Positions 18,126-25,479 of a DNA stretch of 39,439 nucleotides are shown piece after piece. The notes below the pieces were generated by a model. That model was given only the letters and a program-made list of their open reading frames with translations, did no database searches and had not been told where the DNA came from. Numbering within the stretch: position 1 is the stretch's first letter; each line of letters starts with the position of its first letter. The position numbers were made by a program, and so were the translations under genes. The stretch lies in assembly GCA_020724765.1 (NCBI GenBank), contig DYGJ01000003.1:1-39439 (forward strand), in the 5' to 3' direction. This DNA is from Thermotoga sp. (lineage in GTDB: Bacteria > Bipolaricaulota > Bipolaricaulia > Bipolaricaulales > Bipolaricaulaceae).

Positions 18126-19391
18126 CTACTCGTCGCGGCGAACGGTGAGGCGCGACCGTTCCTGAGCTACGACCCTAACCCGGTCGCCCTGGCGCACGGG
18201 GTCGCCCTCGGCGCGGGCCCGCCAGTACTCGCCCCTCACGAGCACCCAGCCTTCCGGATCGAGGTCGTCTTTGGCCACACCGGACAGGCCGACCATCGTC
18301 GTGAGAGATCGCGGCCTTCGGCGCTGGGCGAGAAGTCCCTTCGAGGCGATGAACAGGAAAAGCAGCGTCACCGTCCCCACCGTGGCGGCGACGGTGATCC
18401 ACGATAGCCGCAGCGGTGTTCCCTCGAGCTCGAACAACGAGAACGACCCGATGAGAAGGCTCACCACGCCGCCGGTGGTGAGGATCCCGTCGGTGGGGGT
18501 GAACACGTCCAGCACCATCAGCAGAACCCCGAACAGGATCAGGCCCATTCCGACGAAGCTGATGGGGAGGATCTGCAGGCCGAGCAGGGCGAGCAAGAGC
18601 GAGATCCCGCCTCCGACGAGGCCGATCCCGATCCCCGGGGTGAAGAACTCGTAGATCAGGCCGTACAGCCCGAGCATGAGGAGGATGTAGACAAGGTTCG
18701 GGTCGGCGAGGTAGGAGAACAGCCGGTCCTTGAACGTCATCCCGATTTCCCGCACGGGCAGGCCTGTGGTGTGCAAGACACGCCCGTCGGGGAGGGCGTA
18801 GCCATCGAGCGCGGCGAGGAGGGCGGAGAAGGAATCGGCGATGAGCTCGATCACGCCCAGGTCGAGGGCCTCGGTGGCCGTCAGCGTGGCAGATTCCCGC
18901 ACGGCCCGCTCCGCCCAGTCGGCGTTCCGGCCCCTCAATTCAGCGACAGAACGGATCCGCGCCACCGCGTCGTTCACCGCCTTCTGAACGATGGGATCGT
19001 CTTCCGTGGCCGACTCCCCGGTGATCGCCACCGGGTGAGCGGCGCCGGTGCTTGTGCCGCGGGCCATCGCCGCCAGGTCGGCGGAGATGAGGATGAACGT
19101 GCCGGCGGACGCGGCCCGCGCCCCTGGCGGCCCAATCCAAACTGCCACCGGGACCTCGGAGGCGAGGATCGACTCCATGATCTCCTTCATCGCCGTGTCG
19201 AGGCCGCCCGGGGTGTCGAGGACCAGCACGACAAGCGATGCGCCGACGCGGTTGGCTTCCGCCAGGCCGCGCACGACGTAGCTGCTCGTGGCCGGGTTCA
19301 CCGTCCCATCGAGGGACAGCCGCACCACCTCCCCTGCTGCGGACAGGAAGGCCATCAGCACAGCAACCGCCACGATCACAGACCGACGCAT
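18126..19391 (-). CDS. NfeD family membrane-bound ClpP-class serine protease
   Basis: Likely ATG 19391; signal peptide, VVLVLDTPGGLDTAMKEIMESILASEVPVAVWIGPPGARAASAGTFILISADLAAMARGTSTGAAHPV, then TM segments and a C-terminal NfeD domain. Confidence 0.92.
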   Translation of the reverse strand: MRRSVIVAVAVLMAFLSAAGEVVRLSLDGTVNPATSSYVVRGLAEANRVGASLVVLVLDTPGGLDTAMKEIMESILASEVPVAVWIGPPGARAASAGTFILISADLAAMARGTSTGAAHPVAITGESATEDDPIVQKAVNDAVARIRSVAELRGRNADWAERAVRESATLTATEALDLGVIELIADSFSALLAALDGYALPDGRVLHTTGLPVREIGMTFKDRLFSYLADPNLVYILLMLGLYGLIYEFFTPGIGIGLVGGGISLLLALLGLQILPISFVGMGLILFGVLLMVLDVFTPTDGILTTGGVVSLLIGSFSLFELEGTPLRLSWITVAATVGTVTLLFLFIASKGLLAQRRRPRSLTTMVGLSGVAKDDLDPEGWVLVRGEYWRARAEGDPVRQGDRVRVVAQERSRLTVRRDE

Positions 19392-19486
19392 CGCCTCCCA
19401 TTGTAACGACCCGGGGCGTTGCGATCTGCCCCTGCCCATCTGCGCGGAGCCCATCGAGAGGAATCTGGAGAACGGGGAACGTCCGC

Positions 19487-19492
19487 TATACT
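19487..19492 (+). promoter_or_regulatory. -10 element TATACT for the Mrp operon
   Basis: TATACT ends 7 nt before ATG 19500; no SD before this start. Confidence 0.45.
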
Positions 19493-19499
19493 TGCCCCG

Positions 19500-19979
19500 A
19501 TGAGGCGCTGGATCGGCGGGATCGTGGTCGGGGGGCTTCTGTGGGGGATGTGGGTCCTCCTCTGGCGGGGGGCCGCATGGCCGATCCTGGCGCTGGGGGG
19601 CCTGTTCCCGGTGGCCACCCTCGGGGCCACGAAGGCGGGCACCCTGCCGATGGACTTCCCCCTCTCGGCTTGGTTCCGCCTGGACCTGTGGCTGGCGTTC
19701 GCGGGCACGGTGTGTGCTCTCGTCGTCGCGGCCGTAGCCCGCACAGGGTGGGCGATCCTCACCGGCCGCGTTCGGTCCGGGATCATCGCCATTCCGATCC
19801 GCGTCCGGTCGGAGATGGGGCAGCTCCTCCTCTTGTGGGCGATCACGATCACGCCGGGGACGATTGCCCTGCTTGTGGAGGAGGACACGGCCTACGTGCA
19901 CTGCCTGCATCGACCCTCAGGCCCGTGCCTGTCGGGAACCACGCTCGTCGAGAACCTGCTCGTGAGGCTGTGGGGATGA
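19500..19979 (+). CDS. mrpE: Na+/H+ antiporter subunit E (MnhE/MrpE)
   Basis: GIIAIPIRVRSEMGQLLLLWAITITPGTIALLVEEDTAYVHCL; first gene in Mrp order E-F-G. Confidence 0.88.
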   Translation: MRRWIGGIVVGGLLWGMWVLLWRGAAWPILALGGLFPVATLGATKAGTLPMDFPLSAWFRLDLWLAFAGTVCALVVAAVARTGWAILTGRVRSGIIAIPIRVRSEMGQLLLLWAITITPGTIALLVEEDTAYVHCLHRPSGPCLSGTTLVENLLVRLWG

Positions 19980-20227
19980 GAACCGCTGTGTTGGTCGCCC
20001 TTGTCTTCACCGCGCTCCCCCCGCTAGGGAGGCTGTGGTTGGGGCCCACCCTGTGGGATCGTCTGACGGGCGCGGCGTCGCTCAACGTGCGGGTGACCCT
20101 CGCGTTGGCGGCGGAAGCCGCGTTCGCTGGGCACGGAATCCTCCTCGACGTGGCGCTCGCGTATGCCGTGCTGGGATTTCTGGGCACCGTCCTCGTCGCC
20201 CGGTTCGGGGAACGGGGGCAACGGTGA
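19976..20227 (+). CDS. mrpF: Na+/H+ antiporter subunit F (MrpF)
   Basis: 83 aa; GPTLWDRLTGAASLNVRVTLALAA...DVALAYAVLGFLGTVLVARF; start overlaps mrpE stop. Confidence 0.85.
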   Translation: MRTAVLVALVFTALPPLGRLWLGPTLWDRLTGAASLNVRVTLALAAEAAFAGHGILLDVALAYAVLGFLGTVLVARFGERGQR

Positions 20228-20508
20228 TTGGAACCGTCCTCCTTATCGCCGGGTTGGCCCTCCTGTTCCTGAGCGGCGTGGGGCTGCTGCGCTTTCGTGG
20301 GCCGTACGAGCGGCTCCAAGCCTCGGGGGTAGGCGACATCGGGGGAGCGGTTCTGTTCCTGGTGGGGTTGGTCGTGCGCTTGGGTTGGGAGGCGACCGGG
20401 GGGATACTCGTCGCCCTGACCGTGTTCTTCGTGTTTACGGGGCCTCTCTCGACCCACGCCATCGCCAAGGGCGCGTTCGTGCGCGGCGAGCGCCCCCACG
20501 AGGAGTAA
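20224..20508 (+). CDS. mrpG: Na+/H+ antiporter subunit G (MrpG)
   Basis: GTG start in GTGA overlap with mrpF stop; LLFLSGVGLLRFRGPYERLQASGVGDIGGAVLFLVGL. Confidence 0.88.
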   Translation: MIGTVLLIAGLALLFLSGVGLLRFRGPYERLQASGVGDIGGAVLFLVGLVVRLGWEATGGILVALTVFFVFTGPLSTHAIAKGAFVRGERPHEE

Positions 20509-20514
20509 GGCGGC

Positions 20515-21327
20515 ATGGGCGCAATCCTCTTCTCGGCGCTAACCCTGGCCCTTGCCGTGTTCGCCCTCACCCAGCGTCGGCTCTTGTGGGGGGTGATCGG
20601 GGTCGGCGCGCACTCGCTGGCGCTGGCCGGTGTGTACCTGTTCCTCGCCGCTCCCGACGTCGCCCTCACCCAAGCCGCGATCGGGTTCGGCCTCGTCACG
20701 TTCATCTACCTCCTCGCGTTGCGCCGCACGGGAAAGCTGACCGTGGTGGCCGTAGAGACGCCGCCCCTTCTCCACCAGGAGGGGCAGCGGGTGGCGGGGT
20801 TGGAGTGGGAGATCCTGTCCCGGTTCGGCCGACACCTCCACCAGGACGTCGAGGTGCTGTGGGTGACGCGAGCGGAGATCCCACGCCTCCTCCGCGCAGG
20901 TGAGGCCGACATCGGAGCGGGAGGGTTTCTCCCACGGTCGGAAGACAGAGTCCTTCTCTCCCGCCCCCTCGTGCCGACACGGATCGTCACCGTGCGCTGC
21001 GCCCCAGGACCCCTCGGGGCGGTGGCCGGAGACCGGGGTGAGGACCACCTCCCTGCTGACAGAGCGACGTACGAGGATCACAGGGAGCTGGCTTCCGCTC
21101 TCGGCGCGGGCGAGGTCGGCGGCGTGGTGGCCGATCTGCTCCACGTTCGGCAATGGATCCTCAGCGGCGAGGTTCAGCCCAGCAAGACCTCGGACCAGGA
21201 GGAAACTTCGTTCCGATTCGCAGTCGCCCCGGGTGAGGAGGACGTCCACCAGGCGCTGGACGCGTTCCTTGCCGAACTGGAGGCGAACGGGGAGCTGGCC
21301 CAACTGGTGCGGAGGTACGTCGGATGA
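20515..21327 (+). CDS. MbhD/DUF4040-domain antiporter subunit fused to an SBP_bac_3-like periplasmic ligand-binding domain
   Basis: Residues about 1-70 (RRLLWGVIGVGAHSLALAGVYLFLAAPDVALTQAAIGFGLVTFIYLLALRR) are MbhD-like; the remainder (GLEWEILSRFGRHLHQDVEVLWVTRAEIPRLLRAGEADIGAGGFLPRSEDRVLLSRPLVPTRIVTV...FRFAVAPGEEDVHQALDAFLAELEANGELAQLVRRYVG) looks like SBP family 3. Confidence 0.8.
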   Translation: MGAILFSALTLALAVFALTQRRLLWGVIGVGAHSLALAGVYLFLAAPDVALTQAAIGFGLVTFIYLLALRRTGKLTVVAVETPPLLHQEGQRVAGLEWEILSRFGRHLHQDVEVLWVTRAEIPRLLRAGEADIGAGGFLPRSEDRVLLSRPLVPTRIVTVRCAPGPLGAVAGDRGEDHLPADRATYEDHRELASALGAGEVGGVVADLLHVRQWILSGEVQPSKTSDQEETSFRFAVAPGEEDVHQALDAFLAELEANGELAQLVRRYVG

Positions 21328-21962
21328 GAGTCCTGGCCGCTCTCTCTCTGCTGGTGCTGATGGGTCTGCTTGCCCTCGGCGTGAGCGGGGTGTTCCCGCG
21401 GCCCGCGCTCCCGCCCATGGACGAGGTAGCCGCGGAGTGGGGCGCGAAGAACGTGGTCGCAGCGATCGTCCTTGGTGTCCGGCTGTGGGACACGTTGTTC
21501 GAGATCCTCGTCTACGCGATGACGATGGTCGGCGTAAAACTCGGGCTGCGCCTCCTGCGCTGGGAGCACGCGATTCCGCCGATCCGCGAGACCCCGCTCC
21601 TGCGGCGGTCGGCCGACCTCCTTCTCGGTCCCATCGTGGTGTTCGCCCTTTACGTGGCAGTGAGCGGGCACCTCGGTCCGGGCGGCGGGTTCCCAGCGGG
21701 GGCGATCCTGGGGACGGCGCTCCTGCTCCTGGCGTTGGCCAAGGGTGTAGAGCGGTTGAGCGCGGAGATCCACGAGCCCTCCCTGGAGTGGGCCGAGTAC
21801 GGGGCGATCGTGGCCATCCTCGCCGTGGCCGGGGGCCTGCTTCTCGTGGGCCGCCGCGGGAGCGGATACCTGATCGCAGCGAACGTCCTCATCGCTCTCG
21901 AGGTGGGAATCGGCGCCTGGGTGGTGCTTCACCGGTTCGCGAGTTCGCGGGGGGAGGTGTAA
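21324..21962 (+). CDS. mrpB: MbhE + MnhB/MrpB domain antiporter subunit
   Basis: NVVAAIVLGVRLWDTLFEILVYAMTMVGVKLGLR (MbhE-like) then LLGPIVVFALYVAVSGHLGPGGGFPAGAILGTALLLLAL (MnhB). Confidence 0.88.
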   Translation: MRVLAALSLLVLMGLLALGVSGVFPRPALPPMDEVAAEWGAKNVVAAIVLGVRLWDTLFEILVYAMTMVGVKLGLRLLRWEHAIPPIRETPLLRRSADLLLGPIVVFALYVAVSGHLGPGGGFPAGAILGTALLLLALAKGVERLSAEIHEPSLEWAEYGAIVAILAVAGGLLLVGRRGSGYLIAANVLIALEVGIGAWVVLHRFASSRGEV

Positions 21963-21963
21963 C

Positions 21964-22323
21964 GTGGAAGGTTTGGCAGCGGTAGCGCTGGCGATCGCCT
22001 TGGCGGGATTGGGGTTCTGGAACCTTATCGTGCGACGGAACCTCATTTGGAAGCTTCTCGGTCTGAATGTAGCCGCGAGCGGGGCGATTTTGTTCCTCGT
22101 CGCGCTCGCCCATCGGCCGGGAGCGCGGCCGCCGATCGTCGGCCTCGGGCCGGGCCCGTCCGCCGATCCGCTGCCCCACGCCCTGGTTCTGACCGCGATC
22201 GTGATCGATTTTGCGACGTTGGCGCTGGCCCTCGTGTACGTGATTTTTCTCACCGAACACCGCCACACCCAGGACGTCGAGCGACTGGAGCGCGACGAGG
22301 AGCGCGGGTGGCCGCAGCCCTAA
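21964..22323 (+). CDS. mrpC: Na+/H+ antiporter subunit C (MrpC, NuoK-like)
   Basis: NLIWKLLGLNVAASGAILFLVAL...DPLPHALVLTAIVIDFATLALALVYVIFL; GTG start. Confidence 0.88.
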   Translation: MEGLAAVALAIALAGLGFWNLIVRRNLIWKLLGLNVAASGAILFLVALAHRPGARPPIVGLGPGPSADPLPHALVLTAIVIDFATLALALVYVIFLTEHRHTQDVERLERDEERGWPQP

Positions 22324-23762
22324 GTGGTGTCCTCGCCTACCTCGGCCTGGGCGTTCTCGGGCTCATCGGGGCACCGCGAACGTTCTCCCTGCTCGCCCTG
22401 CTGGGAGGGACGGTTTCGTTCGCGTTGTGGACTCCCGGGTTCCCCGAGGTTCTCGTGGGAGGCCTTCCGTGGGGGGTCGCCCTCGCCGGCGACCCGTGGG
22501 CGGTGGGACTGTGGGCTCTGGCCCTTGTCCTCCACGCCACGCTGCTCATCCACGCCCGCGCCCGACGGGACGCGTTCCATCCCCTGACCACGGTGCTCAT
22601 CGGCACGTGCCTCGCGGGTTCCCTGTCCCGGGATCTGTTCAACCTCTACGTTCTGATGGACCTCTCCTCGCTCCTCGCCCTCGTCCTCATCGCCTCTGGC
22701 CGCCGCGTGCGCGCGGTGTGGGCCGGACTCCAGTACCTCGTCTTGACCGAGGTCGGGCTGACCCTGTACCTGTTCGGCCTTGGCCTCGTCTACGCCCGGC
22801 TGGGGACGCTCTCCGTGTCCGCGTTGGCGGGACAAGGGCCGAACCTCTCCGATCCTGCCCTTGCCGCAGGAGTGGGACTGCTCCTTGCGGGGACGGCAGT
22901 GAAGACGGGGGTGTTCCTCCTCGGCTTGTGGCTTCCCCAGGCCCACGGCCAAGCCCCGACCGAAGTGTCGGTGCTCCTGTCGGGGATCGTGGTCAAGATC
23001 GGGGTCGTGGCCCTGGCCAGGCTTTCCGAGGCGTTCCCGGTGGGGACGGTGCTTCTCCTTCTGGGAATCGTGACCGGGTTCGGCGGGCTTCTGTACGCCC
23101 TGTGGGAGAGGGATCTCAAGGTGTTCCTCGGGTTCCACACCGTGTCCCAACTCGGCTACATGCTGATGGGCCTCGGGCTCGGCGCGGGAACTGGAGCCCT
23201 CCTCTATGTGGTCGCCCACGGGCTGTTCAAAGGGCTCCTGTTCCTCGCCGCAGGGGAGGCCGTGGAGCGGGTCGGCAGGCGCGAAATCACGAGCTTGGCC
23301 GGGCAGCTCTCCCTCCCCGTGGCCGTGGGACTGGGCGTGGGAGCGTGCGCGATCGCCGGACTTCCACCCCTGGCCGGGTTCGCCGCAAAGGGGCTTCTCG
23401 CTCAGGGCGCGCCCGCGTGGGCCAAGGCGCTCTTCTACGCGCTCGGCCTCGGTACCGCGGCATCGTTCTCCAAGCTCATCCCCCTGTTTCGGCCGAAGGA
23501 GGGAGGTCTGGTCGGCGGACTCCCGGTCCTCGCCGCAGCCGTGCTGGGCCTCGGACTCGGAGGAACGGTTCTCGTCTCCGGGCTTCTCAACCTACGCGCG
23601 TGGGGCGAGGCGTTCCTGATCGTGGCGGCTGGGTATGGCACGTACCTCGGGCTGCGGCGGATCCATCCCCGCCTCCCCCGGTGGGGCTTCGACTGGGCCG
23701 TGGTGAGCCTGCTCGTGGGAGCGGTGGGGGTCGCGGGCCTGGTCACGCTAGGTTGGTTGTAG
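22308..23762 (+). CDS. mrpD: Proton-conducting membrane transporter (MrpD, NuoM/N-like), copy 1
   Basis: GTG 22308 overlapping the mrpC end; SRDLFNLYVLMDLSSLLALVLIA, GLWLPQAHGQAPTEVSVLLSGIVVKIGVVALAR, VFLGFHTVSQLGYMLMG. Confidence 0.9.
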   Translation: MAAALSGVLAYLGLGVLGLIGAPRTFSLLALLGGTVSFALWTPGFPEVLVGGLPWGVALAGDPWAVGLWALALVLHATLLIHARARRDAFHPLTTVLIGTCLAGSLSRDLFNLYVLMDLSSLLALVLIASGRRVRAVWAGLQYLVLTEVGLTLYLFGLGLVYARLGTLSVSALAGQGPNLSDPALAAGVGLLLAGTAVKTGVFLLGLWLPQAHGQAPTEVSVLLSGIVVKIGVVALARLSEAFPVGTVLLLLGIVTGFGGLLYALWERDLKVFLGFHTVSQLGYMLMGLGLGAGTGALLYVVAHGLFKGLLFLAAGEAVERVGRREITSLAGQLSLPVAVGLGVGACAIAGLPPLAGFAAKGLLAQGAPAWAKALFYALGLGTAASFSKLIPLFRPKEGGLVGGLPVLAAAVLGLGLGGTVLVSGLLNLRAWGEAFLIVAAGYGTYLGLRRIHPRLPRWGFDWAVVSLLVGAVGVAGLVTLGWL

Positions 23763-23795
23763 GGCGATGGGATTCCACACGCAGAAGGGGATCTC

Positions 23796-25259
23796 GTGAC
23801 CGCGGCCCTGGCAGGGGTCCTCCTCTACCTCGCGCTGGGGGTTGCCGGAATCCTCGGCGCGGGGAGGCTGGCCGCGCTCCTCGCGATGATCGGAGCGTGG
23901 GTCTCGTTTCTGTTCTGGGCGCCGGGGTTCTCCGTCGAGGTGCTGGGAGGCTCCCCGTGGGGGATCCCCCTCGCCGGGGACACCCTCGCCGTCGCGTTCT
24001 GGGCGTTGGCCCCCCTCGTGCACGCCGCGGTATGGTGGCACGAGCGGCACCGTTCCACCACTTTTCACGGCCTGGTCACGCTGCTCGTGGGCACGTGCTT
24101 AGCCGCCGTCCTCTCCCGAGACCTGTTCAACCTGTACGTTCTGCTCGATCTCGGCTCCCTCCTCTCCGTGGTTCTCATCTCCTACGACCGGAAGCCGCGG
24201 GCCGCGTGGGCGGCGCTCCGCTACCTCCTCCTCTCCGCGTTGGGGATGCTCGTCTACCTTCTCGGAATCGGGCTCGTGTACGGCGAACTCGGTACCCTAT
24301 CCCTCGTCCGGATCGCAGAGATCGCTCCCAACCTCTCCCACCCCCCCCTCGCGGTGGGTGTGAGCCTCCTCATCATGGGGGCAGTCGTGAAAGCAGGCGT
24401 GTTCCTGTTCGGGTTGTGGCTGCCGCCCGCCCACGGCCACGCCCCGACCGGCGTATCCGTGATCCTGTCCTCGCTGGTGGTGAAGATGGGCGTGGTCGCA
24501 CTGGCCCGCCTCGCCGAGGCGTTTCCCATTGGGCTGATCCTCGCTGTTCTCGGCCTATTCACCGGTCTGGGAGGAATGATCTACGCTCTGTGGGAACCGG
24601 ACCTCAAGGTGTTCCTTGCGTTCTCGACCGTTTCGCAGCTCGGCTACATGTTGATCGGGTTCGGGGTGGGGGGCGCGGCGGCGTTCGGGGCGACGCTGTT
24701 CCTCATCGCCCACGGGCTGTACAAGGGCCTGTTGTTCTTGGCCGCCGGCGCGGCGATCGAGGAACGGGGTGAGCGGACCTTCGACCAACTCGCGGGGAAC
24801 CTCTCGTGGGGAGTGGCCTTAGGGCTGGCGGTGGGGAGTTGGGCGATTGTCGGGCTTCCCCCGCTGGCCGGTTTCGCTGCCAAGGGTGCCCTGTCGGCAG
24901 GCCTTCCCCCTCTTGCCAAAGGGTTGATCGTGGCCCTCTCCGTGGGCACAGCGGCGGCGTTCTCCAAGGTCCTCCCGCTCCTGCGCTCCCGCGGCCCGAA
25001 ACGGGGCGCGGAAGCAGGGGTAGTGGGCCTTATCCTGGCACTGAGCGCGTTCGGCGCGTGGGGGTTCTTCTTCGTACCCACGGTGCGCAACCCGTGGGAG
25101 TGGGCGATCGGCGGGGCTACCCTCGTCGCGGGCTATGGGGTGCACCGCATCGTGCGGAGCGCGAGTCCGGTTCTGCCCCAGCTCAAGCTGGCCAACGGGA
25201 TGGTCGCCGTGCTGTTGGCAGCGGCTGCCTTGGCAGCGGGGTCTCTGTTTCTGGGGTAG
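23796..25259 (+). CDS. Proton-conducting membrane transporter (MrpD-like), copy 2
   Basis: 487 aa; strongly similar to the preceding ORF (SRDLFNLYVLLDLGSLLSVVLIS, GLWLPPAHGHAPTGVSVILSSLVVKMGVVALARL, VFLAFSTVSQLGYMLIG). Confidence 0.9.
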   Translation: MTAALAGVLLYLALGVAGILGAGRLAALLAMIGAWVSFLFWAPGFSVEVLGGSPWGIPLAGDTLAVAFWALAPLVHAAVWWHERHRSTTFHGLVTLLVGTCLAAVLSRDLFNLYVLLDLGSLLSVVLISYDRKPRAAWAALRYLLLSALGMLVYLLGIGLVYGELGTLSLVRIAEIAPNLSHPPLAVGVSLLIMGAVVKAGVFLFGLWLPPAHGHAPTGVSVILSSLVVKMGVVALARLAEAFPIGLILAVLGLFTGLGGMIYALWEPDLKVFLAFSTVSQLGYMLIGFGVGGAAAFGATLFLIAHGLYKGLLFLAAGAAIEERGERTFDQLAGNLSWGVALGLAVGSWAIVGLPPLAGFAAKGALSAGLPPLAKGLIVALSVGTAAAFSKVLPLLRSRGPKRGAEAGVVGLILALSAFGAWGFFFVPTVRNPWEWAIGGATLVAGYGVHRIVRSASPVLPQLKLANGMVAVLLAAAALAAGSLFLG

Positions 25260-25323
25260 AGCTTCGGCGGGGCTGTTTGGGCCATCGCAAGCGAGTCGCT
25301 ACAATCGACGGCAAGGAGGGAAC

Positions 25324-25479
25324 ATGTCAGAGGGGAAGATACGGGTGAAGGGCGAGTTCGCGGGGATGTTCTGGTTCGCGGGGTGGCTGTTCACGCTGGC
25401 GTTCACGAAGCTCCTGTGGTGGCAGGCGATCCTCGCGCTTGTGATCTGGCCGTACTACCTCGGAGTCCGTCTGCGGTAG
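25324..25479 (+). CDS. Small membrane protein (51 aa)
   Basis: Below the ORF-track cut-off in this form; AAGGAGGGAAC SD then MSEGKIRVKGEFAGMFWFAGWLFTLAFTKLLWWQAILALVIWPYYLGVRLR. Confidence 0.65.
   Translation: MSEGKIRVKGEFAGMFWFAGWLFTLAFTKLLWWQAILALVIWPYYLGVRLR

Follow-up and report, generated by a model that had tools for sequence, protein, structure and literature searches.

A solute-binding-protein fold joined to the MbhD subunit of a predicted Mrp-type antiporter in Bipolaricaulota and Thermotogota

An operon predicted to encode a stand-alone Mrp-type cation/proton antiporter in a member of the Bipolaricaulota contains an MbhD subunit that is joined, in one reading frame, to a solute-binding-protein (SBP) fold of family 3. 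The fused gene lies at 20515-21327 on the forward strand of the window (the whole stretch of 39,439 nucleotides that was analysed); it is intact and encodes 270 amino acids, and its stop codon overlaps the start of the next gene as ATGA at 21324. The same fusion is found throughout two phyla. Comparison of the homologues and analogy with related complexes put the added domain down as a probable conserved regulatory or structural attachment, not as a sensor of the outside.

Both parts of the protein exceed the curated gathering cut-offs of Pfam. Residues 9-73 match MbhD (PF13244, DUF4040; E 3.3e-16, 59.6 bits against a cut-off of 27.2) and residues 80-270 match SBP_bac_3 (PF00497; E 1.7e-9, 38 bits against 26.4). 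The sequence-only reading of this DNA was thus right that an MbhD/DUF4040 segment and an SBP family 3 part share a single in-frame ORF within an Mrp operon, and the PF00497 search that it proposed for the C-terminal part is positive. When 18 homologues were scanned singly, MbhD was called in 18/18 and SBP_bac_3 in 16/18. A profile of the family matches amino-acid SBPs of solved structure, 6h30 being the best match (E 3e-22), as well as the MbhD chains 6u8y_D and 6cfw_D (MBS and MBH).

The predicted structure agrees with this division. An AlphaFold model built on 18 sequences has a mean pLDDT of 86.8; values are about 90 or more across the bulk of the SBP part and lower, about 60-76, in the transmembrane (TM) part. 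The MbhD part (residues 1-73, 20515-20733, +) has three TM helices, modelled at residues 2-19, 23-43 and 47-72, the last being TM3. The SBP part (residues 74-270, 20734-21324, +) begins directly after TM3 without a linker, its first strand (74-79) starting two residues past the helix. Its fold is two-lobed, as expected of the Venus flytrap that had been suggested, with lobe 1 at about 74-153 and 226-270 and a shortened lobe 2 at about 160-224 (borders read from the strands of the model). The best Foldseek matches to amino-acid SBPs reach E ~1e-15 and target TM-scores of ~0.64-0.79.

The fusion was sought in all genome contigs, and phyla beyond those among the matches listed may carry it too. 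Matches that extend from MbhD into the SBP part occur in 58 of the 100 Bipolaricaulota genomes, many of which are incomplete, and in about 70 of the 104 Thermotogota genomes (both counted from the listed rows), so the search for the same fusion in other clusters succeeded well beyond the window. SBP_bac_3 is above the Pfam cut-off in several of the Thermotogota proteins, and several Bipolaricaulota families are without any MbhD match. Because the same architecture recurs in so many separate genomes, an assembly chimera or frameshift is ruled out; a chimera had already been called unlikely from the in-frame sequence and its ATGA overlap with the next gene. Two overlapping samples of 300 and 200 Bacillota genomes yielded no two-lobed fusion; MbhD and SBP are on separate genes there, and the only extensions of MbhD are short tails. 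Spread by plasmid was considered and rejected, none of 72,556 plasmid records carrying the fused gene. One record titled Caldisericota (L051) holds a protein 46% identical to that of the window; the title looks wrong, because its contig coordinates match a genome (G052) of the window's own family. A literature search in a library with few subscription journals returned no paper describing an MbhD-SBP fusion. With Pfam matches of this significance, domain databases should already show the architecture, and we claim no first sighting.

The fused gene belongs to a tight forward-strand operon in the order MnhE, MnhF, MnhG, fused ORF, MbhE-like+MnhB, MnhC, MnhD, MnhD. It is preceded by MnhE/MrpE (19419-19979, PF01899; translation may start some residues into the listed ORF), MnhF/MrpF (19976-20227, PF04066) and MnhG/MrpG (20224-20508, PF03334). 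It is followed by an MbhE-like segment fused to MnhB (21324-21962; PF04039 at E 1.7e-15, PF20501, the MbhE model, weakly and below its cut-off at E 0.0042), by an MnhC/NuoK-like subunit (21964-22323, PF00420) and by two MnhD genes (both PF00361), copy 1 at 22329-23762 (exact start uncertain) and copy 2 at 23796-25259, with 56% identity to each other. MrpB, C, D, E, F and G subunits are therefore all present by Pfam, and the place of the fused gene between MnhG and MbhE/MnhB is the one expected of MbhD or MrpA-C. The E, F, G, B, C and D subunits have homologues in the single operon of the seven-subunit Mrp antiporters (MrpA-G), but operons of the present type have no full-length MrpA with a NuoL-like N-terminal part, one or two MnhD genes standing there instead. 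The tandem pair (22329-25259) is shared by most of the window's genus; a single MnhD is present in most of the remaining Bipolaricaulota and in the Thermotogota loci examined. The slot order E-F-G-A'-B-C-D is common to both phyla and mostly kept; two Thermotogota loci (L161, L169) have C and D ahead of A'-B. Two further genes flank the operon of the window: a 52-aa membrane-protein-like ORF with no Pfam match directly after it (25321-25479) and, upstream on the opposite strand, an NfeD1b-type membrane protease gene (18129-19910, -), whose real start is probably further in because the listed ORF overlaps MnhE.

A second, plain MbhD is often encoded in the same genomes as the fused copy. In the two loci examined in detail this plain subunit is part of an Mbh/Mbx-type redox complex, since it adjoins NuoB/C/D- and NuoH-like subunits both at L155 in Bipolaricaulota (from the translations) and at L157 in Thermotogota (from Pfam). 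No such NuoB/C/D/H-like redox subunits were called next to the fused gene at the loci examined, and among the loci compared the SBP part is confined to the copy without a redox arm. At L154 and L155 the cluster around the second MbhD also includes a ferredoxin-like protein and small and large subunits of hydrogenase type; these genomes pair an Mbh-type complex with the stand-alone antiporter.

Across 44 homologues, Lys and Arg residues are rare before TM1 (mean 0.09 per sequence) and in loop 2 (0.05) but common in loop 1 (2.07) and after TM3 (2.82). With three TM helices, this positive-inside pattern leaves the N-terminus outside and therefore the SBP part inside. The five-TM topology of NuoJ has been measured as N-out/C-in (PMC4604451), and TMH17-21 of MrpA share the NuoJ fold (PMC7419157). 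The MbhE-like partners mostly start with MR or MK, starts that would continue the NuoJ path and agree with a cytoplasmic SBP part; the partner in the window begins with MR (N-in by this start) and retains a DTLFE motif, which from its spacing is taken to correspond to MrpA Asp792/Glu796. Neither hydropathy nor the AlphaFold model contains a fourth TM helix, and the fused domain, unlike amino-acid SBPs, has no signal peptide. Charges and homologues together thus strongly suggest that the SBP part lies in the cytoplasm, between the equivalents of NuoJ TM3 and TM4. The sequence-only reading had placed it in the periplasm and had counted a cytoplasmic topology against itself; the charge pattern, the NuoJ topology and the MR/MK starts of the partners lead us to reject the periplasmic location, and the predicted position is not the extracytoplasmic one of a functional SBP family 3 receptor.

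Family-3 SBPs hold amino acids with an [ST]x[TN]xxR motif, an aromatic-proline-aromatic motif and a GTT-type motif. We compared 44 fused domains (21 from Bipolaricaulota and 23 from Thermotogota) with 20 free SBPs of the same two phyla, which are near relatives because they were picked by their match to the family profile. The first two motifs are present in 20/20 free SBPs and the GTT-type motif in 19/20, but each of the three is found in 0/44 fused domains. One canonical ligand-site residue, Asp207 of lobe 2 (codon 21133-21135, +), is kept in 41/44. Position 156 (Arg156 in the window, codon 20980-20982, +) is Arg or Lys in 35/44 fused domains, as against Asp, Asn or Glu in 20/20 free SBPs, and this basic residue may take the place of the ligand's ammonium group facing Asp207 and keep the two lobes joined. 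Asp207, Arg/Lys156, Arg210 and Arg/Lys212 are conserved in most fused domains, while E97, G136 and D207 are nearly invariant among them. Lobe 2 is shortened, severely so in Thermotogota: D207 comes 90-102 residues after G136 in free SBPs, as against usually 71 in the Bipolaricaulota domains and 24-59 in those of Thermotogota. The fused domain thus resembles amino-acid SBPs (family 3, PF00497) and the SBP sensor domains of BvgS and MltF in its two lobes, its sequence profile and the lobe-2 Asp, and differs from them in its predicted cytoplasmic location, the missing signal peptide, the lost motifs and the shortened lobe.

In a quick tree with unknown root and several long Thermotogota branches, one branch with 100% SH-aLRT support sets all free SBPs apart from all fused domains, consistent with one ancestral fusion event followed by remodelling. 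Within the window's genus, most dN/dS values fall at 0.1-0.4 for the SBP part and at 0.05-0.1 for MbhD, which argues that the SBP domain is maintained, though freer to change.

The helix that carries the domain also bears a cation-site position. MbhD Glu69 of MBH, equivalent to Glu706 of MrpA, is a Na+-coordinating cation-site residue (PMC7419157). In the alignment to 6cfw_D its counterpart in the window is Gln53 (codon 20671-20673, +), so that the acidic residue expected of MbhD or MrpA-C is missing here. Among the 44 relatives, position 53 is Glu in 32 and Gln in 11 (6/21 Bipolaricaulota and 5/23 Thermotogota). The window and most of its genus have Gln in place of the Glu69 of MBH and keep the DTxxE pair in the MbhE partner; ion selectivity may differ with Gln53. 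Because TM3 bears this position and is joined to the SBP part without a linker, an effect of the domain on the cation path is plausible.

From these observations we propose that the ORF encodes the MbhD subunit (NuoJ-like, a split-off MrpA-C) of an Mrp-type cation/proton antiporter that stands alone, in which an SBP-family-3 fold was fused onto the cytoplasmic end of TM3 and then remodelled. Sitting on TM3 without a linker and working without the canonical ligand, the domain might serve as a cytoplasmic strut or allosteric cap that stabilises the split complex or conveys to the cation path a signal from the cytoplasm or a contact with a partner. To the core of this proposal, that a repurposed cytoplasmic SBP-fold module stabilises or allosterically controls an antiporter without MrpA-N or a redox arm, we would give an even chance.

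The main rival to this structural or allosteric role is a cytosolic metabolite sensor, in which a non-canonical cytoplasmic ligand, such as an anionic metabolite bound by the new Arg/Lys residues, would close the lobes, move TM3 and so switch the antiporter. A two-lobed fold that keeps Asp207 and has gained conserved Arg/Lys residues around the cleft could still bind something; Bipolaricaulota retain both lobes, the joint to TM3 has no linker and the SBP part is under purifying selection, all of which speak for a sensor. The loss of all three canonical motifs weighs against it, as does the Thermotogota lobe 2, whose 24-59 residues between G136 and D207 are too little for an ordinary clamshell, and we regard it as possible but rather doubtful. 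The fuller version of this idea, a cytoplasmic Venus flytrap with a remodelled pocket that senses a cytosolic metabolite and directly switches the cation-path TM3 of an Mrp-type antiporter, is somewhat less probable again; a literature search turned up no account of Mrp or complex I relatives being controlled in this way. That the domain is instead vestigial, an old fusion decaying without function, would fit the graded shortening of lobe 2 and the faster change of the SBP part relative to MbhD, but it is very unlikely given a dN/dS well below 1 in nearly all pairs, the presence of the domain in most sampled operon-bearing genomes of two phyla and the near invariance of E97, G136 and D207. Proteins of SBP family 3 are as a rule extracytoplasmic amino-acid binders, and this, together with the similarity in sequence and fold, speaks for the periplasmic amino-acid or compatible-solute receptor gating ion exchange from outside that was first suggested for this gene; with the domain predicted inside, no fourth TM helix, no canonical motif in 44/44 and a shortened lobe 2, it is the least probable reading.

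The NuoJ/MbhD subunit is common to Mrp antiporters and complex I, and its TM3 is thought important for coupling. A large, linker-free domain on the cytoplasmic end of TM3, kept in two phyla and, in the genomes checked, limited to the antiporter copy that lacks a redox arm, offers a natural experiment on the control of this helix. It would also show a nutrient-binding fold that, having lost its ligand site, is predicted to act inside the cell. Because Thermotogota, with many cultured species, carry the fusion, it is accessible to experiment.

Among known MbhD and MrpA-C (NuoJ-like) subunits, the likeness extends to three TM helices, an APDVA motif, the place before MbhE/MnhB and the matches to 6u8y_D and 6cfw_D. 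The known forms stop after TM3 or continue straight into MbhE, whereas the protein of the window adds a 197-aa SBP fold. A further comparison is with the PRK07377 models of NCBIfam and with Bacillota MbhD proteins of 175-190 aa, in which MbhD is followed by a soluble tail of ~105-115 aa, too short for two lobes. We observed this form in seven loci (L085, L073, L074, L170, L171, L172 and L175; Bacillota and one Thermotogaceae), with a tail modelled as alternating strands and helices and without a fold match. For the Bacillota short-tail form the AF2 mean pLDDT was 76, with Foldseek matches confined to the MbhD part and none at E <= 0.001. The short tail is a doubtful homologue of SBP: Bacillota-type tails alone give no Pfam SBP match and no significant PRK07377 match, the PRK07377 tail alone likewise falling short of significance (E 0.23). 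With MbhD included, the PRK07377 models align with the Thermotogota fused proteins into the first lobe, and in two Bacillota genomes the family match reaches model position 135 at E 1.5e-23.
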